Shown piece after piece: positions 14,687-49,094 of a stretch of DNA of 64,000 nt. The position numbers and the translations under genes were made by a program. The number at the start of each line of letters is the position of its first letter. The first letter of the stretch is position 1. The stretch covers positions 248,001 to 312,000 of the forward strand of contig NZ_QEWO01000002.1 in NCBI RefSeq assembly GCF_003402235.1. Reading direction: 5' to 3'. The stretch is from Parahaliea mediterranea. Its GTDB lineage: Bacteria > Pseudomonadota > Gammaproteobacteria > Pseudomonadales > Halieaceae. The notes beneath the pieces were generated by a model. The model was not told the origin of the DNA. It saw only the letters and a program-made list of their open reading frames with translations, and did not search any database.

Positions 14687-16423
14687 ATGCCCCAACACCG
14701 TGAAGATAACGATAACGTGACACAGCAGGATTATGCGGTTGACTGGCTGGTGGCAGGCGCCGGCGCCGGCGGCATGACCGGCGCCGTGGTGGCCCACCAG
14801 CTGGGCGGTAGCGTGCTGCTGGTTGAGAAAGAGCCCGTTTATGGCGGCACCACCGCCAAATCCGGCGGCGTGGCGTGGATTCCCGCCAATCACCGCCTGG
14901 GTGAGTTTGGCATTGAAGACAGCAGCGAGCGCGCCTACCAGTACCTGCACGGCCTGATTGGTGACAGCGTGCCCGCGCCCCGCGTGCGCGCCTACGCCGA
15001 GCGCGCCAGCGAAATGCTGCGCTTCATGATGCGCCACAGCCATGTGCACTACACGCCGCTGCCGGCCTACATGGATTACTACGACAGCGTGCCGGGCTAC
15101 CTGAATGGCGGGCGCTCCATGGACCCGGCACCGCTGCACATCCGCCACCTGGGCGCGGCGGCCAGCACCATGAGTCGGGATCACTACACTGGCCTGCTGT
15201 TGCCCTTCAACGTGTCGGTGGTGGAGGGGCGGCGCCTGCAGGACATGGACGCCGGCGCCTACCTGCTCGGCGCAAAACTCGCCGCCCGCTACTACCTGGA
15301 CCTGCCCGCCCGCCTGGCCAGGCGCGGCGACGACCGGCTGACCCTGGGCCCGGCCCTGGTAGCCCGCCTGCGGCGCTCGCTGCTGGACCGGGACATACCG
15401 CTGTGGCTGGATACGCCGATAACCGAGATGTTGTATGAAAACGGCCGCGTGTGCGGCGCGAAGGTGTTGCGTCGGGGTGAGCCGGTGACGGTGCGCGCCA
15501 AACGTGGCGTTCTGTTATGCACGGGCGGTTTTGCGCGCAATGCCGGCCTGCGCCGGCAGTACCAGCCCCAGCCCTCCAGCGACCGCTGGACCGCGGCGGC
15601 CCCCGGCGCCACCGGCGACGGCATTGCCCTGGGCGAACAGGTCAACGCTGCGCTGGGCTTCATGGGCAGCGCCTGGTGGTCACCCACCTACCTGCTGCCC
15701 GATGGCCGCAGCCTGGCGCTGATTTCCGGCAAGTCCAACCCGGGCTCCATCATGGTCAACCGACAGGGCAAACGCTTCACCAACGAAGCCCAGCCCTACG
15801 AGGACGTGGTAAAGGACCAGTATGCCTCCGAGGGCCGCGGCGAAGGCGCGGTGCCCTGCTACCTGATTTTTGACGCACAGTTCCGGGAGAAATATACCGC
15901 CGGGCATATCAAACCGGCGAAGATCACCCCCGACAGCCGTCTGCCGCAGGATTACTTCGACAAGGGCCTGTTGAGCCGCGCCGACACCCTGTTCGAACTG
16001 GGGGCAACACTGGGCATGGACGGGCACGCCCTGGCGCAGACGGTGGCCGACTTCAACCACCACGCCCGCCTCGGCAAGGACCCGCTCTTTGGCCGCGGCG
16101 ACAGCCTGCACGACCGTTACTACGCGGACCCGAAGGTGCAGCCCAACCCCTCCCTGGCGCCGCTGGAAAAAGCGCCCTTCTATGCCCTGCGCTGCGAACC
16201 GGGAGACCTGGACACCAAGGGCGGCCTGCTGTGCAATGAACACGCCCAGGTGCTGGACCGGAGCGGTGATGTGATTGCCGGCCTGTACGCCGCGGGCAAC
16301 GCGAGCGCCGCGGTGATGGGCGACACCTACCCCGGTGCCGGCTCCACCATCGGCTCCGCCATGACCTTCGCCTACATCGCTGCCCGTCATGCCCTGGACA
16401 ACGGCGCAAACCAACAGCCATGA
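14687..16423 (+). CDS. FAD-dependent 3-ketosteroid delta-1-dehydrogenase-like oxidoreductase
   Basis: A 578-residue flavoprotein. The FAD dinucleotide motif is GAGAGG at residues 24-29. The GGTTAKSGGVAWIPAN stretch (about 57-72) and the C-terminal TYPGAGSTIGSAMTFAYIA are hallmarks of the KstD / fumarate-reductase-like group, which introduces a 1,2 double bond into the steroid A ring. It is followed 35 bases later by a KshA-like Rieske oxygenase; KstD and KshA together open steroid ring B. The start is uncertain: ATG 14687 has a weak ribosome site, and GTG 14717 is an alternative. No other ring-degradation genes (hsaA-D) occur in the window. Confidence 0.82.
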   Translation: MPQHREDNDNVTQQDYAVDWLVAGAGAGGMTGAVVAHQLGGSVLLVEKEPVYGGTTAKSGGVAWIPANHRLGEFGIEDSSERAYQYLHGLIGDSVPAPRVRAYAERASEMLRFMMRHSHVHYTPLPAYMDYYDSVPGYLNGGRSMDPAPLHIRHLGAAASTMSRDHYTGLLLPFNVSVVEGRRLQDMDAGAYLLGAKLAARYYLDLPARLARRGDDRLTLGPALVARLRRSLLDRDIPLWLDTPITEMLYENGRVCGAKVLRRGEPVTVRAKRGVLLCTGGFARNAGLRRQYQPQPSSDRWTAAAPGATGDGIALGEQVNAALGFMGSAWWSPTYLLPDGRSLALISGKSNPGSIMVNRQGKRFTNEAQPYEDVVKDQYASEGRGEGAVPCYLIFDAQFREKYTAGHIKPAKITPDSRLPQDYFDKGLLSRADTLFELGATLGMDGHALAQTVADFNHHARLGKDPLFGRGDSLHDRYYADPKVQPNPSLAPLEKAPFYALRCEPGDLDTKGGLLCNEHAQVLDRSGDVIAGLYAAGNASAAVMGDTYPGAGSTIGSAMTFAYIAARHALDNGANQQP

Positions 16424-16458
16424 GCCCATAAAAAGCCCTGAGCCCACAAGGAGCCGCC

Positions 16459-17490
16459 ATGAGTAAATACGCCTACCTGGAAGCGGGCCGCTACGCCCGC
16501 GGCTGGCACATCGTGCTGTTTTCCCGCGAGTTGGAGCCCGGGGAGGTCAAGCGCTTCCACTACTTCGACCGCGAGTTTGTCATCTGGCGCGGAGAATCCG
16601 GCGAGGCCTTCGTGGTGGATGCCTACTGCCCCCACCTCGGCGCCCACCTGGCCAGCGACGGTGGCCGCATTCGCGGCAATGCCATCGCCTGCCCCTTTCA
16701 CGGCTGGGTGTTTGAGGGCAGTGGTGAATGCATCGAGATCCCCTACGCCAAACAGATACCGCCGCGCGCCAGGCAAGCCCTGAAGGGCTGGCCAGTGCTG
16801 GAGCGCAACGGGTTTATCGCCATCTGGTACTGCCCGGAGGATTCCGAGCCGGTGGACTACCTTCCCGCCATTGACGACTGGGGCCCGGGCAAATGGGGCG
16901 ACTGGCAGTTCCAGCGTTCACGCATTCGCGCCCAGCCCTGTGATGTGATCGAAAACATCGTCGACATTGCCCACTTTCCCCATGTCCACGGCGGCAATGT
17001 GCACGCCTTCGAAAACCGCTTCGGTGACTTCACTGTTACCCAGATTTCCCGGGTCAAACGCGACCCACAAGCGGGTATGATCACCCCGCCCGGCCTGCCC
17101 TTCGACCTGGTGGACGCCCGCAACCAGGGCGCGGGCATGGAGGCCGATGCCTGGGGCGACGCCACCTATCACGGGCCGTCGATCATGTATTACTACACCG
17201 AATCACGCAGCCCGGACATCAGCTTCAAGAGCTGGTGGGTGAACTACCACACGCCGGTCAACGACAGCGAAGTGGATCTGTGCTCCGCCGTGATCATGAG
17301 CAGCCTGACGGACGCGGCGCTGCCTGAGGAATTCACCCAGCTCTACCCGGCAGTGGCCCACGCCGCCTTTGGGCAGGATGTGCTGATCTGGCAGGACAAG
17401 GTGTACCGGGAAGATCCCATCCTCTGCGACGGCGACGGCCCGATCAATAAACTGCGGCGCTGGTACGAGCGCTTTTATCTACCGGCCTAG
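16459..17490 (+). CDS. Rieske non-heme iron oxygenase, KshA-like (3-ketosteroid 9-alpha-hydroxylase oxygenase component)
   Basis: A 343-residue oxygenase. The Rieske cluster ligands are Cys57, His59, Cys78 and His81 (CPHLGAHLA ... CPFHGW). The mononuclear iron site is the facial triad candidate His172/His177 after the bridging Asp169 in DIAHFPHVHG. Size and motifs match the KshA group of ring hydroxylases acting on steroids or related polycyclics. AAGGAG precedes the ATG, and the gene is coupled to the KstD-like gene. A reductase partner (KshB) is not adjacent; the Fpr at 34128 is a possible but unproven donor. Confidence 0.82.
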   Translation: MSKYAYLEAGRYARGWHIVLFSRELEPGEVKRFHYFDREFVIWRGESGEAFVVDAYCPHLGAHLASDGGRIRGNAIACPFHGWVFEGSGECIEIPYAKQIPPRARQALKGWPVLERNGFIAIWYCPEDSEPVDYLPAIDDWGPGKWGDWQFQRSRIRAQPCDVIENIVDIAHFPHVHGGNVHAFENRFGDFTVTQISRVKRDPQAGMITPPGLPFDLVDARNQGAGMEADAWGDATYHGPSIMYYYTESRSPDISFKSWWVNYHTPVNDSEVDLCSAVIMSSLTDAALPEEFTQLYPAVAHAAFGQDVLIWQDKVYREDPILCDGDGPINKLRRWYERFYLPA

Positions 17491-41493: not shown

Positions 41494-42291
41494 ATGTCGT
41501 CTGACACTCTGCAACAACTCTCTCCCGCCGAACTGCGCCAGCGCATTCGCCAGGGGCAACACCGCGGCAATACCTCGGGCTACGCCCAGGGCTTTGTGCA
41601 GTGCAATCTCGCCATCCTGCCGGCGGACTGGGCGGCGGATTTTCTGCGCTTCTGCCAGCTCAACCCGCGCCCCTGCCCGCTGGTGGGCATGTCCACCCGC
41701 CCCGGCGATGTGGCGCTACCACCTTTGGGGAATATAGACATACGCACCGACGTGCCAAGCTACCGCGTCTTCCGCCACGGGGAATTCGTCGAAGAAGTGC
41801 ATGACATCAGCGCGCTGTGGCGCGACGATCTTGTGGTTTTTGCACTGGGGTGTTCGTTCTCCTTCGAGGAGGCGTTGCTGGCCGACGGCCTGGACGTGCG
41901 CAATGTCAGCATGGGCGTGAATGTACCGATGTACCGCACCAACATTGCCTGCCAGCCGGCGGGTGCCTTTGCCGGCAACATGGTTGTCAGCATGCGCCCC
42001 TTCAAGGCGGCCGACGCCATACGCGCGGTGCAGATCTGCACCCGTTTTCCCTCGGTGCACGGCGCGCCGGTACACCTCGGTGACCCGGCGCTGATCGGCA
42101 TCGGTGACCTGGCGCAGCCGGACTACGGCGACGCGGTCACCGTGGCCGAGGACGAACTGCCGGTGTTCTGGGCCTGTGGCGTCACGCCGCAGGTGGCGCT
42201 GGAGGCAGCAAAGCCGCCTTTTGCCATCACCCACAGCCCGGGCTGCATGCTGGTGACCGACCTGCGCAACAGTCGCCTGGCGGTGCTGTAA
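41494..42291 (+). CDS. DUF1445 protein (putative D-glutamate cyclase-type hydro-lyase)
   Basis: A 265-residue DUF1445 (YcsI-like) protein. Visible conserved stretches are [18 protein letters not shown] (about residues 29-46), [27 protein letters not shown], the arginine/asparagine-rich [11 protein letters not shown], and the C-terminal [18 protein letters not shown]1445 is one of two domains of mammalian D-glutamate cyclase (DGLUCY), which converts D-Glu to 5-oxo-D-proline. Bacterial members are usually annotated only as putative hydro-lyases. It is the first gene of the operon, with GAGGT before its ATG. Confidence 0.87.
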
Positions 42292-42317
42292 CAGAAATGA
42301 CAGGGGACTCTGGAACA

Positions 42318-43052
42318 ATGCGCCTGAACTGCGATCTGGGCGAAAGCTACGGCAGCTGGACCATGGGGCTGGACGCCGAGGTCATGCCCCACATTCACCA
42401 GGCCAACGTGGCCTGTGGCTTTCATGGCGGCGACCCGGTGACCCTGCGCAACACCCTGCGCCTGGCCGCCCGGCACGGCGTGAGCGTGGGCGCCCATCCC
42501 GCCTACCCGGACCTGGTGGGCTTTGGCCGGCGCAGCATGGCCCTGAGCCGCGACGAACTGGTTGCCACCCTGCTCTACCAAGTGGCAGCGCTGGATGGCA
42601 TGGCCGCCAGCGAGGGCCTGCAGCTGGCCTACGTCAAACCCCACGGTGCCCTGTACAACGACATGATGGCCAATGCCGAGGTGCGCGCCGGCGTGATGGA
42701 GGCCCTGGCCGCCTACCACCGCCCCCTGCCGCTGATGCTGCTGGCCACCCCGGCGGCTGGCGATCACCGCGCCGAAGCCAGCGCCACCGGCGTTGCCGGC
42801 CTGCTGTTTGAAGCCTTTGCCGACCGCTGTTACGACGACGACGGCGCCCTGCTGTCGCGGCGCAAACCGGGCGCGGTGCACGACCAGCAGCGCACCCTGG
42901 CCCAGGTGCGCCAGCTGGTTGACGAAGGCACCGTTACCTCGGTGAGTGGCAAGCGCCTGCGCCTGGATGCGGATACGCTCTGCGTTCACGGCGACAACGC
43001 CGAGGGCGTGCGCGCCATCGCGGCCATTCGCGCCATCGTCGACGAGGCCTGA
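42318..43052 (+). CDS. pxpA: 5-oxoprolinase subunit A (LamB/YcsF family)
   Basis: A 244-residue PxpA, part of the ATP-dependent PxpABC 5-oxoprolinase that opens pyroglutamate to glutamate. The N-terminus MRLNCDLGESYGSW, VACGFHGGDP, GAHPAYPDLVGFGRR and YVKPHGALYN are diagnostic. I chose ATG 42318, which has TGGA upstream and matches family N-termini; ATG 42297 would add seven residues. The gene lies 26 bases after DUF1445 and three bases before pxpB. Confidence 0.95.
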   Translation: MRLNCDLGESYGSWTMGLDAEVMPHIHQANVACGFHGGDPVTLRNTLRLAARHGVSVGAHPAYPDLVGFGRRSMALSRDELVATLLYQVAALDGMAASEGLQLAYVKPHGALYNDMMANAEVRAGVMEALAAYHRPLPLMLLATPAAGDHRAEASATGVAGLLFEAFADRCYDDDGALLSRRKPGAVHDQQRTLAQVRQLVDEGTVTSVSGKRLRLDADTLCVHGDNAEGVRAIAAIRAIVDEA

Positions 43053-43055
43053 TTC

Positions 43056-43733
43056 ATGCGTTTGTCCCAGGCGGGCGAAGCCGCCCTGATGCTCTATCTG
43101 GGGGATGAGACCAGCCCGGCCGTATCGGCCCGGGTGCAGGCCGCGGCGCAGGCGGTAGAGGCAGCCCTGGGGGATGACCTAGTGGATCTGGTGCCCTCCT
43201 ACGCCTCGCTGCTGATCATCTACAACCCCCTGACCACCGACCACTTCAGCGTTGGCCGGCGCGTGCGCAGCGCCGTGGGCGGGCTCGACACCGGCAATGC
43301 CGGCGAGGGCCGCGAGGTGCGCCTGCCGGTGTACTACCATCCCGAAGCCGGTGAAGACCTGGAGGCTCTGGCCCAGCGCGCGGGCCTTGGCGTGGACGAG
43401 GTGATCGCCATCCACAGCGCCACCGAATACCGCGTCTACGCCATCGGTTTTGCCCCGGGTTTTGCCTACCTTGGCCAGGTGGACGAGCGCATTGCCGCGC
43501 CGCGCCTGGCCACCCCGCGCCAGCGGGTGCCACGGGGCGCGGTGGCCATAGCCGACCGCCAGACTGCGGTGTACCCGGCGGTATCCCCGGGCGGCTGGAA
43601 CCTGATCGGCCGCTGCCCCACCCGCATGTTCGACCCTGCGGCCGAGCCCACCATGCCGGTGGCCGTGGGCGACAGAGTCCGCTTTGAGCCCATCGACCGC
43701 AGCCGCTTTCTGGCGCTGGGGGGCGAGCTGTGA
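43056..43733 (+). CDS. pxpB: 5-oxoprolinase subunit B (KipI-like)
   Basis: A 225-residue PxpB, the KipI-like subunit of 5-oxoprolinase. Typical features are VPSYASLLIIYNP (about residues 49-61), the central YAIGFAPGFAYLGQVD, RVPRGAVAIADRQTAVYP and SPGGWNLIGRCP. In Bacillus the relative KipI inhibits the sporulation kinase KinA, but the pxpA and pxpC neighbours here indicate the enzyme role. It ends in a four-base overlap with pxpC. Confidence 0.95.
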   Translation: MRLSQAGEAALMLYLGDETSPAVSARVQAAAQAVEAALGDDLVDLVPSYASLLIIYNPLTTDHFSVGRRVRSAVGGLDTGNAGEGREVRLPVYYHPEAGEDLEALAQRAGLGVDEVIAIHSATEYRVYAIGFAPGFAYLGQVDERIAAPRLATPRQRVPRGAVAIADRQTAVYPAVSPGGWNLIGRCPTRMFDPAAEPTMPVAVGDRVRFEPIDRSRFLALGGEL

Positions 43734-44680
43734 GCCTGCAGGTGGTGCAACCCGGGCTGATGAGCCTGCTGCAGGACGGCGGCCGCTACGGCCAGCAGCG
43801 TATCGGCCTCACCACCGGTGGCCCCCTGGACCCGGAGGCCTTTGCCCTGTGCAACCGCCTGCTGGGCAACGATGCCACCGCCACCGCGGTGGAAGTCAGT
43901 TTCGGCGGCCTGGTGCTGACGGCTACCGTGGATACGCGCATTTGCGTTACCGGCGCCGCGCTGCCCCTGCGCATCAATGGCAAAGAACAGGCGCGCTGGT
44001 GCGTGCACCGGGTGGGCGCCGGCGATGAGATTGCGGTGGACTTTTTGACTGCCGGCACCGCCGCCGGTTGCCGCGCCTACCTGGGCGTGGCCGGTGGCTT
44101 TAGCGTGGCGCCGCAGTTTGGCAGCAGCAGCACCGTGGTGCGCGAGCACATTGGCGGCCTCAAGGGCGAAAAATTACAGCCCGGCGATACGCTGCCCTGC
44201 GCAGCCAGCAGCGGCGGCCCCCTGCGCCGGCTGCCCGAAGCACTGCGCCCGGTGTATGGCAACAGCGTCGTGCTGCGGGTGATTCCCGGCTACCAGCAGG
44301 CGCACTTTTCACCCCTGCAGCAACGCCGCTTCTACAGCAGTGAATACACCGTGAGCGAGCGCTGCGACCGCATGGGCTATCGCCTGGAGGGCACCGCCAT
44401 CGCCTGTGATATCGAGGGCATACTGTCCGAGGGCATCTGCTTTGGCGCCATCCAGATTCCCGCCGATGGCCAGCCAATCGTACTGTTAAACGACCGCCAG
44501 ACCATTGGCGGCTACCCCAAGATCGGCGCCGCCCTGTCACTGGACGTGGCGCGCCTGGTGCAACTCACCCCCGGCGCCACGGTGCGCTTTGAAGCAGTGA
44601 GCCGCGATGCCGCCCACAATGCCCTGCACCTGGCCGCGCACCGCTTGCGTACCCTGCCACTGGCGGAGTTTTCCTTATGA
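43730..44680 (+). CDS. pxpC: 5-oxoprolinase subunit C (KipA-like biotin-dependent-carboxyltransferase fold)
   Basis: A 316-residue PxpC. Landmarks are VQPGLMSLLQDGGRYGQQ (about residues 5-22), the GGPLDPEAFALCNRLLGN stretch, YLGVAGGF, RCDRMGYRLEG and NDRQTIGGYPKIG near the C-terminus. The fold is shared with allophanate hydrolase subunit 2 and urea amidolyase. GTG 43730 overlaps the pxpB stop (GTGA), and its own stop overlaps the next start (ATGA), so translation of pxpB, pxpC and DUF4392 is coupled. Confidence 0.95.
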   Translation: MSLQVVQPGLMSLLQDGGRYGQQRIGLTTGGPLDPEAFALCNRLLGNDATATAVEVSFGGLVLTATVDTRICVTGAALPLRINGKEQARWCVHRVGAGDEIAVDFLTAGTAAGCRAYLGVAGGFSVAPQFGSSSTVVREHIGGLKGEKLQPGDTLPCAASSGGPLRRLPEALRPVYGNSVVLRVIPGYQQAHFSPLQQRRFYSSEYTVSERCDRMGYRLEGTAIACDIEGILSEGICFGAIQIPADGQPIVLLNDRQTIGGYPKIGAALSLDVARLVQLTPGATVRFEAVSRDAAHNALHLAAHRLRTLPLAEFSL

Positions 44681-45534
44681 ATGAACAGGACCTGTCGGTC
44701 GCCATCGAGAATGCGCTGGTGGCGCGCAACCTGCGCCAGATGCGCGTGGCCCAGGCCGCTTTGCAGCCCGGCTACTACCTGCGCGCGGCGCGGCTGCTGC
44801 AACAGGCCGGCACCGCCCGGGCCGGGGCCCGGGTGCTGATTGGCACCGGCTTCCCGGTGGTGGATACCTTCGAGACCGACGGCCCGGTGGGCGCCATCGC
44901 CCTCTATGAAGCGCTGGCGGCGCTGGGCTACCAGCCGACCCTGGCCTGCGCGGCGCCACTGGCGGCGGCCCTGGCGCCGGACTTTGCCGTGCTGGAGCTG
45001 ACCGGCAGTGATCTTGAGGGCGCCCGCCACCAGGCCCGCGACGCCCTCACCGCCCTGCAACCGGCGGCGGTGGTCTCCATCGAGCGCCCGGGGCTCGCCG
45101 CCGATGGCCGCTACTACAACATGCGCGGCGAGGATATCAGCGCCCGCTGCGGCATCTTCGACCCCTTTATGGAACTGGCCGACTGCCCCACCATTGCCAT
45201 TGGCGATGGCGGCAACGAGATCGGCATGGGCAATATCGCCAGCGCCATCAGCGCGCTGGATATTCGCGTGTCCGTCACCACCTGCGACGAACTGCTGGTG
45301 GCGGATGTCTCCAACTGGGGGGCCTACGGCCTGATCGCCTTCCTCGGTATGTGGCGGGGGCGCGACCTGCTGGGCGCCGTCTCCCCCATTGCCATCCTCG
45401 ACTATCTTTCCCAGCGGGGCAGCGTGGACGGCGTCACCCGGGAAAACACCCCCACCGAGGACGGCCTGGACGCCGCCGAAGGGCTGGCGGTACTGGCACA
45501 GCTGCGCGCCCTGACCGGCTTCGCGGATCGCTGA
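44677..45534 (+). CDS. DUF4392 protein, D-glutamate cyclase C-terminal-type domain
   Basis: A 285-residue protein. Visible conserved blocks are VLIGTGFPVVDTFETDGPVG (about residues 53-72), VVSIERPGLAADGRYYNMRG, IAIGDGGNEIGMGNI (about 170-184), VTTCDELLVADVSNWGAYG and ENTPTEDGLD. DUF4392 is the C-terminal domain of mammalian D-glutamate cyclase; its partner domain DUF1445 is encoded by the first gene of this operon. The two halves that are fused in animals are separate here and flank pxpABC. The start overlaps the pxpC stop. Confidence 0.87.
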   Translation: MNEQDLSVAIENALVARNLRQMRVAQAALQPGYYLRAARLLQQAGTARAGARVLIGTGFPVVDTFETDGPVGAIALYEALAALGYQPTLACAAPLAAALAPDFAVLELTGSDLEGARHQARDALTALQPAAVVSIERPGLAADGRYYNMRGEDISARCGIFDPFMELADCPTIAIGDGGNEIGMGNIASAISALDIRVSVTTCDELLVADVSNWGAYGLIAFLGMWRGRDLLGAVSPIAILDYLSQRGSVDGVTRENTPTEDGLDAAEGLAVLAQLRALTGFADR

Positions 45535-45561
45535 CGACAACACAGAGCAAAGGGACAGCCC

Positions 45562-46419
45562 ATGAGCATCGTATACCTGAACGGCGAATACCTGCCGATG
45601 ACCGAGGCCCGCATTTCTCCCATGGATCGCGGCTTCCTGTTTGGCGACGGCATTTATGAAGTCATTCCCTCCTACAACGGCAAGCTGGTGGGTTTTGGCC
45701 CCCACATGGACCGCATGCAGGACGGCCTTAACGCGCTGGAAATTGCGCTGCAACTGGACCAGACCGAATGGCGCCAGATTGCCCAGACCCTGATTGAGCG
45801 CAATGGCGGCGGCAATCTTGGCATCTACTTCCACGTCAGTCGCGGCGCCGACGTGATTCGCAACCACGCCTACCCCAGCGCCATCGAAGCCACCCGCTAC
45901 GCCTTTGCCTTCGAGATTCCGCCGGCGCCGCTGGCCGACAAGGCGGCGGCCACCTGCTACAAGGTGTCCACCACCGAAGACCTGCGCTGGAAGCGCTGCA
46001 ATATCAAGTCCACCGCCCTGCTCGGCAACGTCATGCACTACCAGCACGGCTACGCCCAGGGCAACAGCGAGACCATCCTCTACAACACCCGCGAAGAACT
46101 GACCGAGGCCGCCGCCTGCAACGTTTACGTGGTAAAGAACGGCGTGGTGGCCACGCCTGAGCTGGACTACCAGAAGCTGCCCGGCATCACCCGCCTGATC
46201 CTGCTGGACATCCTGCGCAAGGACGGCAGCATTCGGGTTGAGGAACGGGTGGTGAGCCTGCAGGAGCTGCGCGACGCCGACGAGGTGTGGCTGTCCTCCT
46301 CCAGCAAGGAGCTGGCGCCGGTGGTGCAGGTGGACGGCGTTGCGGTGGGCGACGGCAAGCCGGGGGATGTGTGGCTGGCCGCCCAGACTCTGTTCAGCCA
46401 GCACCGCTACGACTACTGA
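45562..46419 (+). CDS. dat: D-amino-acid aminotransferase (PLP fold type IV)
   Basis: A 285-residue class IV aminotransferase. The PLP lysine is Lys149 in DLRWKRCNIKSTALLGNVM, close to the DIRWLRCDIKS pattern of Bacillus D-amino-acid transaminase (Lys145). MDRGFLFGDGIYEVIPSYNGKL and YFHVSRGADVIRNHAYP also match D-transaminases rather than IlvE. The enzyme exchanges amino groups among D-Ala, D-Glu and other D-amino acids and their 2-oxo acids. Its stop overlaps the racemase start as TGATG, so translation is coupled. It lies 27 bases after DUF4392. Confidence 0.92.
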   Translation: MSIVYLNGEYLPMTEARISPMDRGFLFGDGIYEVIPSYNGKLVGFGPHMDRMQDGLNALEIALQLDQTEWRQIAQTLIERNGGGNLGIYFHVSRGADVIRNHAYPSAIEATRYAFAFEIPPAPLADKAAATCYKVSTTEDLRWKRCNIKSTALLGNVMHYQHGYAQGNSETILYNTREELTEAAACNVYVVKNGVVATPELDYQKLPGITRLILLDILRKDGSIRVEERVVSLQELRDADEVWLSSSSKELAPVVQVDGVAVGDGKPGDVWLAAQTLFSQHRYDY

Positions 46420-47507
46420 TGAGCCGCCCGAGTCAGGCCCGCCTGGATCTTGCGGCCCTGCGCCACAACGTGGCGCTGGCCAGCGAGCTGGCGCCCAACG
46501 CCAGGGTAATGGCGGTGGTCAAGGCCAATGCCTACGGCCACGGCGCGGTGACCATGGCGCGCGAACTGGAACCGCGCGTGGACGCCATGGCCGTGGCCTG
46601 CCTGGAAGAGGCGCTGGAGCTGCGCGAATCCGGCATCCGTGCCCCCATCCTGTTGCTGGAGGGCGTGTTCGAGCCGGCGGAACTGGCGGTGGCCGCCCGC
46701 GAGCAAATCTGGGTCACCGTGGACAACGCCACCCAACTGGCATGGCTGGAGCAGGCCCGGCTGGATAAACCCCTGCAATGCTGGCTGAAGGTAGACACCG
46801 GCATGCATCGCCTTGGCACCGAGCCGGGCCAGGCCCAGCGCTATTTCGAACGCATCACCAGCTGCCCCAACAGCCTCGGCAAGCCGGTGGTGTCCACCCA
46901 CTTCGCCAGCGCCGACGATACCGGCAGCGAAACCACCCGCCGCCAGCTCGCCCTGTTCGAACAGGCCACCGCGGCCCTGGGCGTCCTGCGCAGCGCGGCC
47001 AACTCGCCGGGCCTGCTGGCCTGGCCGGCCTCCCACTACGATTGGGTGCGCCCGGGCTACATGCTGTGGGGCAACTCGCCCTTTGGTACCGCCCTGCAGG
47101 CCAACGCCGCCCGCCTGCGCCCGGTGATGACCCTCTGCTCCGCGGTGATTTCCGTGCGCGATGTGGCCAGCGGCGAAGCCGTGGGCTACGGCGAAAGCTG
47201 GCGCGCCGAGCGCCCCTCGCGCATTGCCACCGTCACCATCGGCTACGGCGACGGCTACCCGCGCACCGCCCGCAACGGCACCCCGGTGCTGGTCAACGGC
47301 CAGCGGGCGCCGCTGGCCGGGCGGGTGTCGATGGACATGATCACAGTGGATGTCACCGACCTGGTCCCGGTGCAGGTGGGCGACCCGGTGGTGCTGTGGG
47401 GCGAGGGCCTGCCGGTGGCGGAGGTGGCCGAGCCGGCGGGCACCATCGGCTACGAACTGCTGACCCGCATGCCGCCGCGCTGCCCGCGCATTGTGGTGAA
47501 CGCCTGA
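46419..47507 (+). CDS. alr: Alanine racemase
   Basis: A 362-residue fold type III PLP enzyme. The PLP lysine is Lys35 in AVVKANAYGHG. The opposite catalytic tyrosine is in IATVTIGYGDGYPR, and GRVSMDMITVDVTD completes the family set. It converts L- and D-alanine. The frame is open upstream inside dat, but ATG 46419 overlaps the dat stop and yields the normal N-terminus. Its placement behind dat and the cyclase/oxoprolinase genes suggests a catabolic or D-Glu-balancing role in addition to wall synthesis. Confidence 0.95.
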   Translation: MSRPSQARLDLAALRHNVALASELAPNARVMAVVKANAYGHGAVTMARELEPRVDAMAVACLEEALELRESGIRAPILLLEGVFEPAELAVAAREQIWVTVDNATQLAWLEQARLDKPLQCWLKVDTGMHRLGTEPGQAQRYFERITSCPNSLGKPVVSTHFASADDTGSETTRRQLALFEQATAALGVLRSAANSPGLLAWPASHYDWVRPGYMLWGNSPFGTALQANAARLRPVMTLCSAVISVRDVASGEAVGYGESWRAERPSRIATVTIGYGDGYPRTARNGTPVLVNGQRAPLAGRVSMDMITVDVTDLVPVQVGDPVVLWGEGLPVAEVAEPAGTIGYELLTRMPPRCPRIVVNA

Positions 47508-47558: not shown

Positions 47559-49094
47559 TTGGTTTCCGACAGCGAACAGCACCCCGCCGCCACCGATAGC
47601 ACCCAGCCCCTGCGCGATGGCAGCCTGTTGGCCGCCATCGACCTGGGCAGCAACTCCTTCCACCTCATCATCACCCGGGTTGAACACGGCGAAATCCGCC
47701 CGGTGGAGGCGCTGGCGGAAAAAGTCCAGCTGGGCGCCGGCCTGGTGGATCACCAGCTCAGCCAGGAGGCCATCGACCGCGGCCTGGAATGCCTGGCCCG
47801 CTTCGGCCAGCTGCTTGGCAGCGTGGAGCCCGAGCGCATCCGCATTGTGGCCACCCACACCCTGCGGGTGGCCCACAACCGGCGCGATTTCACCCGCCCG
47901 GCCCGCGACCTGCTGGGCACTCCGGTGGATGTTATCTACGGCCGCGAAGAAGCGCGTCTGGTCTACCTCGGCGTGGCCCACACCCTGGCCGACGACGCCC
48001 AATCGCGGCTGGTGATTGATATCGGCGGCGGCAGCACCGAGCTGATCGTGGGCGAGCGCTTTGAGCCGCGGGAGTTGGAAAGCCTGCAGATGGGCTGCGT
48101 GTCCTACAGCCGCGAATTTTTCGATGGCGAGACCATCAGCGTGGATCGCTACCGCGCCGCCTGCAACCGGGCCCGGCTGGAGCTGTCCCACATCCGCCAG
48201 CGCTATCACAGCGGCCACTGGGTGGACTGCGTTGGCTCCTCCGGCACCCTGCAGGCCATCGAGGGCATTCTGCAGGCCCACGGCTGGAGCAGCGGCGGTA
48301 TCGACAGCGCGGGGCTGGCCAAACTGGAACAGCGGCTGCTGCGCTTCAAGCGCTTCAGCGCCATCAAGCTGGACGGACTGTCGCCCCAGCGCCGCAATGT
48401 CATTCTGGCCGGTGTGGCCATCACCCGCGCCCTGTTTGATGTGCTGGGCATCCAGCACATGCGCACCTCCAAGGGGGCGCTGCGCGAGGGCGTGATCTAC
48501 GACCTGCTGGGGCGCCTGTCCCACGAAGACGTGCGCGAGCGCAGCATCAATGCCCTGATGCAGCGCTACAACGTGGACACCGCGGCGGCCGCGGTGGTGG
48601 AGCAGCGGGCGCGTGTGCTGTTCGATGCAACACGCAAAACCTGGGAACTGAAAAAAGCCGACTGGGATCTGCTGTACCGCGCCGGCTGCACGCTGGATGT
48701 GGGCATGGCCATCTCCCACAAGCACTACAACCGCCACTCGGCCTACCTGCTGCAGAACACCGACCTGGCGGGCTTCTCGCAGGAAGAACAGGAACAGCTC
48801 GCCCTGCTGGTGCGCTGCCACCGGGGCAAACTCGATGCGGCCCTGTGGGCGGATCTGGCCGAACCGGAGGTAACGCGGCTGGTGCGCCTGATCACCCTGC
48901 TGCGCCTGGCCTACCTGTTCAAGCACGTGGAACAGCTGGAGCAGCTGCCGGCCTTCAAGCTGCGCGCCGGCAAGCGCTCGCTGAAACTCTCCTGCCCCGA
49001 GGGCTGGCTGGAACAGCACCCCCTCACCGCCTGGGAGCTGCAACAGGAGTGCGCGGTGCTGGGCAAGCTGGGGCTGAAGCTCAGCGTGCAGTAG
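47559..49094 (+). CDS. ppx: Exopolyphosphatase (Ppx/GppA family)
   Basis: A 511-residue member of the ASKHA-fold Ppx/GppA family, which hydrolyses polyphosphate or pppGpp. N-terminal AAIDLGSNSFHLIITRV, VIYGREEARLVYLG, the phosphate motif VIDIGGGSTELIVG (about residues 152-165) and a C-terminal HD-like helical domain with ISHKHYNRHSAYL are visible. The length of about 500 fits Ppx. The start is TTG 47559 with AGGAA upstream. No ppk is nearby. It ends with a 14-base overlap on the convergent hydrolase gene. Confidence 0.93.
   Translation: MVSDSEQHPAATDSTQPLRDGSLLAAIDLGSNSFHLIITRVEHGEIRPVEALAEKVQLGAGLVDHQLSQEAIDRGLECLARFGQLLGSVEPERIRIVATHTLRVAHNRRDFTRPARDLLGTPVDVIYGREEARLVYLGVAHTLADDAQSRLVIDIGGGSTELIVGERFEPRELESLQMGCVSYSREFFDGETISVDRYRAACNRARLELSHIRQRYHSGHWVDCVGSSGTLQAIEGILQAHGWSSGGIDSAGLAKLEQRLLRFKRFSAIKLDGLSPQRRNVILAGVAITRALFDVLGIQHMRTSKGALREGVIYDLLGRLSHEDVRERSINALMQRYNVDTAAAAVVEQRARVLFDATRKTWELKKADWDLLYRAGCTLDVGMAISHKHYNRHSAYLLQNTDLAGFSQEEQEQLALLVRCHRGKLDAALWADLAEPEVTRLVRLITLLRLAYLFKHVEQLEQLPAFKLRAGKRSLKLSCPEGWLEQHPLTAWELQQECAVLGKLGLKLSVQ

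Follow-up and report, generated by a model that had tools for sequence, protein, structure and literature searches.

A stretch of 64,000 nucleotides from Parahaliea mediterranea (contig NZ_QEWO01000002.1, positions 248,001 to 312,000; the window in what follows) contains, at 41494-47507, seven closely spaced genes on the + strand in the order cycN-pxpA-pxpB-pxpC-cycC-dat-alr (Table 1). Their products are assigned to the two domain types of D-glutamate cyclase (CycN and CycC), the three subunits of 5-oxoprolinase (PxpABC), a probable D-amino acid transaminase (Dat) and alanine racemase (Alr), and the operon is considered here as a candidate system for handling D-glutamate (D-Glu). Neighboring genes are separated, whether by gap or by overlap, by 27 bases or less throughout. 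These seven open reading frames (ORFs) and their single orientation had been reported in a preliminary description of this DNA, made without database searches, and the coordinates given there are confirmed.

Table 1. The seven genes of the operon, with positions in the window
Gene	Coordinates	Strand	Assignment and remarks
cycN	41494..42291	+	DUF1445 / PF07286, D-glutamate cyclase N-terminal-type domain, 'putative hydro-lyase'
pxpA	42297..43052	+	LamB/YcsF family, 5-oxoprolinase subunit A; first ATG 42297, alternative ATG 42318
pxpB	43056..43733	+	Carboxyltransferase domain C/D, 5-oxoprolinase subunit B
pxpC	43730..44680	+	Carboxyltransferase domain A/B, 5-oxoprolinase subunit C; GTG start, 4-base overlap with pxpB
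cycC	44677..45534	+	DUF4392 / PF14336, D-glutamate cyclase C-terminal-type domain, dinuclear metal site; 4-base overlap with pxpC
dat	45562..46419	+	Class IV aminotransferase, probable D-amino acid transaminase; 27-base gap after cycC
alr	46419..47507	+	Alanine racemase; 1-base overlap with dat

A Pfam profile search places each gene in the family from which the preliminary description had named it, always above the gathering score: cycN scores 221 bits with PF07286 (gathering 25), cycC 218 bits with PF14336 (gathering 27.9), pxpA, pxpB and pxpC 293 (PF03746), 241 (PF02682, CT_C_D) and 279 (PF02626, CT_A_B), dat 160 (PF01063, Aminotran_4), and alr 235 and 154 (PF01168 and PF00842). Both cyclase domains are thus present above cut-off and are carried by separate genes. 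The NCBIfam cut-offs are passed by cycN (NF003969, 413 versus 324), pxpA (NF003816, 324 versus 213), pxpB (TIGR00370, 166 versus 146) and alr (TIGR00492, 373 versus 168). The product of pxpC lies above the cut-off of a general model (TIGR00724, 246 versus 230) and below that of the PxpC equivalog (NF045499, 202 versus 500), and cycC has no NCBIfam match. By these scores the family assignments of the seven genes hold, with reservations for PxpC and Dat. The Parahaliea genome contains one PF03746 match. The next downstream gene, on the same strand, is ppx/gppA at 47559, an adjacency that varies in relatives; a promoter/terminator scan gave no promoter-like site on the + strand, and an Rfam scan of the window gave no match.

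The distribution of the operon was followed in genomes sampled from the Halieaceae (37), the rest of the order (21), the class (276), the phylum (397) and the Alteromonadaceae (147), and in a set of named genomes represented by the best 80 of 527 confirmed loci, which leans towards intact relatives as the best query matches. (Halieaceae occur in both the family and the named-genome samples.) PF14336 is found in 34 of the 37 Halieaceae versus 3 of the 21 other genomes of the order, and PF07286 in 34 versus 5. The Halieaceae genomes without PF14336 are G006 (88% complete), G029 and G036; in G036 the flanking genes of the window (acyl-CoA ligase, dat, alr and ppx) are kept, cycN, pxpABC and cycC are absent from this place, and a divergent pxpABC lies elsewhere, an arrangement as expected from loss of these five genes. 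More widely PF14336 is rare, with 2/276 genomes of the class and 11/397 of the phylum (both counts include Parahaliea itself), but it occurs in 27/147 Alteromonadaceae.

Where enough flanking DNA was present, all seven genes are found together at 27 of 30 Halieaceae loci (32 in all); the cluster is without cycN at two and without pxpB and pxpC at one, and alr is present at all 30. Among the named-genome loci with enough flank (61 from the best 80 of 527), cycN-pxpABC-cycC is complete in 53, dat is present in 54 and alr in 24, counting dat at no less than 45% and alr at no less than 42% identity (the distant alr genes of loci L127 and L138 are uncounted); the 80 include Amphritea, Marinobacterium, Neptunomonas, Pseudoalteromonas, Colwellia, Rheinheimera, Leucothrix, Cocleimonas and Sedimenticola. 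The same five genes are complete in 15 of 24 Alteromonadaceae loci with enough flank. Across 87 non-redundant loci, pairwise divergences correlate at r 0.69-0.82 within these five genes and at 0.55-0.67 between them and dat. Since alr is often missing outside the Halieaceae, and dat is missing in several Alteromonadaceae, the conserved unit is the five-gene core cycN-pxpABC-cycC, with dat as a frequent partner and alr as a less frequent one, constant only in the Halieaceae. The neighborhood survey proposed in the preliminary description therefore upholds the co-occurrence of these families, but not the idea of seven genes as one fixed system.

Some loci depart from the core. In three Pseudoalteromonas loci the order is cycN-pxpA-cycC-dat, with pxpBC elsewhere in the genome, and in Neptunicella pxpA and pxpB lie apart from the cycN-cycC pair. 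These Pseudoalteromonas loci, and a few more in which pxpA accompanies cyclase genes in a cluster that lacks pxpBC, suggested that PxpA might act without PxpBC. This idea was dropped, since in each of the 14 genomes checked (13 distinct, G039 and G382 having the same coordinates) a single PxpA is accompanied by one or more PxpB-type genes.

Structural comparisons bear on the two cyclase-type proteins. Vertebrate D-glutamate cyclase is made up of PF07286 and PF14336 (PMC5132392, excerpt), and the mouse protein, a fusion of the two, forms 5-oxo-D-proline from free D-Glu, as seen in a chromatogram for which each enantiomer served as a standard (PMC5339696, excerpt). CycN matches 2PIF with a phmmer E value of 5e-82, and its AlphaFold model (pLDDT 91) agrees with that structure at TM 0.85. 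The structural matches of the model are 2PIF and 3DB9 and, distantly, the NrpR-like protein MJ0159 (3NEK; E 1e-6, TM 0.41-0.48), which in a Foldseek search is the only one outside the protein's own family to pass E 0.001; no racemase fold was found. NrpR senses 2-oxoglutarate, and the likeness would fit a five-carbon dicarboxylate as the ligand of CycN. CycC is a homologue of TON_0340, and its model agrees with that structure at TM 0.72-0.77. Six acidic residues at the metal site, E66, D68, E136, D177, E181 and D262, are all kept in 158/158 ORF rows (redundant rows included); the same six acids are named for the metal site of TON_0340 (PMC5132392, excerpt).

The reading favored here, with a probability of about 0.5, is that the operon is a hub for the salvage and homeostasis of wall-derived D-Glu, joined in the Halieaceae to the probable supply of D-Glu. 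The core would interconvert D-Glu and 5-oxoproline: CycC, with its two-metal Mn site, together with CycN would close D-Glu to 5-oxo-D-proline, and PxpABC, driven by ATP, would reopen 5-oxoproline to glutamate. The module may thereby handle D-Glu, or gamma-D-Glu peptides, freed by peptidoglycan turnover. In the Halieaceae, Alr would make D-Ala and Dat would reversibly move the amino group to 2-oxoglutarate to give D-Glu, replacing the apparently missing glutamate racemase MurI; in reverse, Dat and Alr would turn surplus D-Glu and pyruvate into 2-oxoglutarate and L-Ala. We infer these catalytic steps, the direction of flux and the enantiomer used by PxpABC. The route given in the preliminary description, from L-Ala through D-Ala, D-Glu and 5-oxoproline to Glu, would be one direction among several, and it passes over the gap between the D and L forms of 5-oxoproline.

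The link to the cell wall comes from the Alteromonadaceae. Five recycling queries, taken from loci L182 and L121, were applied at a threshold of at least 100 bits: a NagZ-like glycoside hydrolase of family GH3 (NF003740, 195 bits, just below the cut-off of 207), a regulator of the MurR/RpiR type that stays under the equivalog cut-offs, a kinase-MurQ etherase fusion (MurQ above cut-off), a Na+/solute symporter, and an AmpD-like amidase domain, short of the NCBIfam AmpD cut-off, fused to PBP4B (above cut-off). At least one of them is matched in 12 of 27 Alteromonadaceae module loci, but in none of 20 control windows taken from these genomes (Fisher p 3e-4, with loci treated as independent though they are not), two or more of them in 7 of the 27. 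The 12 loci span 8 of 15 genera, and when L182 and L192 (the latter taken as the same contig as L121) are omitted, recycling genes remain in 10 of 25; at the other 15 Alteromonadaceae loci none of the five queries was matched. The loci L178 and L182 combine the exo-muramidase NamZ, the kinase-MurQ fusion, the Na+ symporter and the MurR-type regulator. NamZ is identified by a Pfam match in L182 and by homology in L178 and, more weakly, in L180. In L208 a GH3 gene, a NagX-like gene and cycN are contiguous, and in three Pseudoalteromonas loci of the named sample GH3 directly precedes cycN. In addition, a GlcD/YdiJ-like oxidase with FAD and 4Fe-4S lies near the module in L113, L117 and L132 (Pseudoalteromonas) and in L182, possibly for the D-lactate set free by MurQ.

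Clusters of the NamZ-NagZ-MurQ-MurR type are known for the sugar part of peptidoglycan. The Alteromonadaceae module lies inside or beside such clusters and, unlike these recyclers of MurNAc, would act on the peptide part, by handling its D-Glu. The same neighborhoods could be explained if CycN and CycC acted as a gamma-D-glutamyl cyclotransferase that releases 5-oxo-D-proline from gamma-D-Glu-diaminopimelate, with PxpABC opening it to D-Glu that is reused in building the wall or passes through Dat and Alr to 2-oxoglutarate and L-Ala. Because D-Glu is gamma-linked in peptidoglycan, release as a lactam would be fitting, and all seven genes would then run in one direction with no futile cycle. 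We know of no enzyme of the CycN or CycC families that acts on peptides, however, and 5-oxo-D-proline is only a putative substrate of PxpABC. The mouse protein, moreover, acts on free D-Glu (PMC5339696, excerpt), and this explanation is considered doubtful.

The link to D-Glu supply comes from the Halieaceae and, like the recycling neighborhood, is a point beyond the preliminary description. In a search with TIGR00067, to which DapF-type and other racemase families were not added, MurI is found above cut-off in 0 of 37 Halieaceae genomes, whereas 15 of the 21 remaining genomes of the order have it; 7 of the 37, including Parahaliea (G000), show partial matches that are weak, at 22-28 bits. The Parahaliea genome has a single alanine racemase (one PF00842 match, in the operon), and of its TIGR01121 matches the operon dat, at 214 bits, is the only strong one, the others scoring 146 and 70; none of 58 genomes passes the cut-off of this model. 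The closest solved relatives of Dat are proteins named D-amino acid aminotransferases. Its Arg100-x-His102 and Lys149 align with 3DAA and are kept in 127/127 rows at 50% identity or more, with Phe at the position of His102 in two rows at 45% identity or less; the Arg-x-His pair is the carboxylate-binding one, and the lysine the one that carries pyridoxal phosphate (PLP). These features point to a probable D-amino acid transaminase. Because MurI gives no match above cut-off and the only alr and the only strong dat match lie in the operon, Dat and Alr are the likely source of D-Glu, and the wall D-Glu of the Halieaceae probably comes from this pair. In Bacillus and Staphylococcus, Dat with D-Ala as donor supplies wall D-Glu in place of or beside MurI; the Halieaceae Dat would have the same role, joined here in one operon with a D-Glu/5-oxoproline module.

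A related explanation, whose route was contained in the preliminary description, is that the operon is an overflow valve: L-Ala would be converted through D-Ala to D-Glu by Alr and Dat, and since Dat, unlike MurI, is not subject to feedback control, the excess would be removed as 5-oxoproline and returned as Glu. The lack of MurI above cut-off in the Halieaceae and the position of the only Alr and the only strong Dat match would agree with this. However, 10 of 50 module carriers also have MurI, the core occurs without dat and alr, and the relatives G029 and G036 keep dat-alr without cycN or cycC, which makes such a valve distinctly unlikely as the function of the operon.

Several findings weigh against the favored reading of a salvage and homeostasis hub. 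The solved DUF4392 protein TON_0340 is described as a weak Mn-dependent phosphatase whose physiological substrate is unknown (PMC5132392, excerpt). Dat is below curated cut-offs (TIGR01121, 214.6 versus 277; PRK06680, 234 versus 320) and is called only probable for this reason. None of the five recycling queries is matched at the 32 Halieaceae module loci, so that the wall link in this family is carried over from another one. MurI is below cut-off or absent in 190 of 276 genomes of the class, with only 86 passing, and is lacking above cut-off in 40 of the 50 module carriers. Lack of MurI is thus no distinguishing mark of module carriers, and its association with the module is weak. (Absence of MurI as the cause of the module had seemed decisive in the Halieaceae and was rejected in view of these 190 genomes and the 10 carriers with MurI. 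MurI-free supply of D-Glu may be common across Gammaproteobacteria.) Of the five DUF4392 loci that are most distant in the phylum sample (L174-L177 and L183, 32-36% identity), L174, L176 and L177 (35-36%) have a CycC-type gene with no core partner in the fetched stretch; in L175, pxpA and a fused pxpBC lie about 7 kb from the DUF4392 gene, and L183 has cycN.

The remaining difficulties concern stereochemistry. PxpABC of Corynebacterium glutamicum is described for 5-oxo-L-proline (PMC13274462, excerpt), which is not the 5-oxo-D-proline that the cyclase would make. Either the PxpABC encoded here accepts 5-oxo-D-proline, or the lactam is inverted by a partner; no bacterial test of PxpABC on 5-oxo-D-proline, or of lactam inversion, was found in the literature searched. 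If PxpABC acts on 5-oxo-D-proline, cyclase and oxoprolinase alone would form a futile cycle without Dat, and the five-gene core would need a sink, either Dat or the synthesis of wall. Core loci that lack dat are nevertheless found, 7 of the 61 from named genomes and 8 of the 24 from Alteromonadaceae (L195, L199-L201, L203, L208 and L209 are examples from this family), and cycN-cycC stand alone in two further Alteromonadaceae loci. The core loci without dat mildly favor inversion of the lactam, whereas the product of the mouse protein speaks against it.

Inversion is the basis of another explanation, in which the core is an ATP-driven inverter: CycC would cyclize D-Glu, CycN or another partner would racemize the product to 5-oxo-L-proline, and an L-specific PxpABC would open this to L-Glu, so that the core alone converts D-Glu to L-Glu. 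A core that occurs without dat should have a net product of its own, and the inverter would provide one from the substrate already described for PxpABC. CycN keeps Cys61, Cys120 and Cys228 in 131/131 ORF rows (redundant rows included), and in the model Cys120 and Cys228 each sit between a strand and a helix. Furthermore, DUF1445 is found without DUF4392 in 3 of 58 genomes (G049, G055 and the fragmentary assembly G006), and the control genome of Bacillus subtilis has PF07286; its DUF1445 gene ycsI is situated among pxp genes. Nevertheless, the strand-Cys-helix pattern is set against the fold search, which yielded no racemase for CycN and only 3NEK beyond its own family, and against the 5-oxo-D-proline formed by the mouse fusion of both domains (PMC5339696, excerpt). 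CycN as a two-cysteine racemase was therefore set aside and is kept as a rival only, and the inverter as a whole is rather unlikely. Only tentatively, then, might the five-gene core be an undescribed branch of peptidoglycan recycling on the peptide side, taking wall D-Glu by way of 5-oxoproline to glutamate that the cell can use, as an ATP-driven D-to-L glutamate inverter with DUF1445 as a cofactor-free 5-oxoproline racemase and DUF4392 as a Mn-dependent cyclase. If this were true, separate roles would be assigned to the two domains of the human enzyme.

The genes around the module bear on a further suggestion of the preliminary description, that D-amino acids of marine organic origin, to which external 5-oxoproline may be added, serve as food. 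The hosts are marine, a LysR-type regulator family is present in 26 of 80 loci (best 80 of 527), often between cycC and dat, and two of the distant loci have transport-related genes: in L175 pxpA is preceded by an ABC transporter with a BPD_transp_2 permease, and in L183 a DctP-type binding protein follows cycN. However, no amino-acid transporter was found among the examined neighbors of close module loci, which were annotated in part only. The transporters met there are an EamA protein (L081 and its cluster-mate L086), an MFS protein (L202) and, in the wall-recycling clusters, the Na+ symporter. External feeding thus finds little support and is very unlikely. The alternative origin named in the same description, D-Glu from wall turnover, gains from the recycling genes beside the Alteromonadaceae module, but not from the Halieaceae.

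Every enzyme of the operon is of a known kind, and the operon is real, conserved and functionally coherent. The vertebrate D-glutamate cyclase (C14orf159 / 9030617O03Rik) is built from the same families, PF07286 and PF14336, but as one fused mitochondrial protein that makes 5-oxo-D-proline (PMC5339696, excerpt), whereas here two genes flank pxpABC. The PxpABC proteins of B. subtilis and of the C. glutamicum pxpTABC operon belong to the same families and share the gene order pxpA-pxpB-pxpC. The C. glutamicum operon, however, also includes a transporter and a regulator of the GntR type and is used for 5-oxo-L-proline from outside (PMC13274462, excerpt), while here the two cyclase-type genes lie on either side of pxpABC, and dat and alr are linked to the set. 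The human cyclase appears in a table row as being split in gut bacteria (PMC11580864, excerpt), and D-glutamate cyclase is named without being studied in PMC6131576 (excerpt). As the preliminary description had supposed, no description of the assembled pathway was found in the open-access literature searched, and none of a bacterial operon of this kind among the papers listed, although an earlier remark on DUF1445 beside pxp genes may exist. As far as the searched papers go, what is new is the assembly, the wall-recycling link in a second family, and the union with the probable sole supply of D-Glu in the Halieaceae.

Bacterial relatives of the human D-glutamate cyclase gain a genomic role, 5-oxoprolinase is tied to cell-wall metabolism, and the Halieaceae are marked as a lineage whose D-Glu, and hence wall, probably depends on one Dat-Alr pair. 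The role of each cyclase domain and the enantiomer taken by PxpABC become testable with five purified proteins.

Some further features were seen near the module. In Amphritea and relatives (L082, L093, L096, L098 and L102) the interval from cycC to dat contains a PLP enzyme resembling cysteine desulfhydrase and a gene of an AsnC-type regulator family (annotated in L093 only), and in Neptunicella (L181) a D-cysteine-desulfhydrase-like gene directly precedes cycN. An acyl-CoA synthetase family gene precedes cycN on the same strand in L074, L078, L080, L087, L089 and L112, immediately except in L112 (annotated in L074), and in these loci other than L087 an MTTB-type methyltransferase family gene follows dat, past a LysR-family gene (annotated in L080). 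The genome G004 has, besides its full operon, a second DUF4392 paralogue that is 28% identical (L036), with no module gene in the 18 kb examined. In L027 (G034) pxpB, dat and ppx are each split in two adjoining matches, as by frameshift or assembly error. Large proteins also carry the domain: a 3573-aa frame at L179:4680-15401 (G639), beside cycN at 15573-16640, has two DUF4392 domains and a DUF4781 match, and a 1412-aa frame in L183 (G748), downstream of cycN and the DctP-type binding protein, ends in a DUF4392 domain. At L177:11953-13335 (G477) a gene with a Mur-ligase domain lies two genes from the distant DUF4392 gene.

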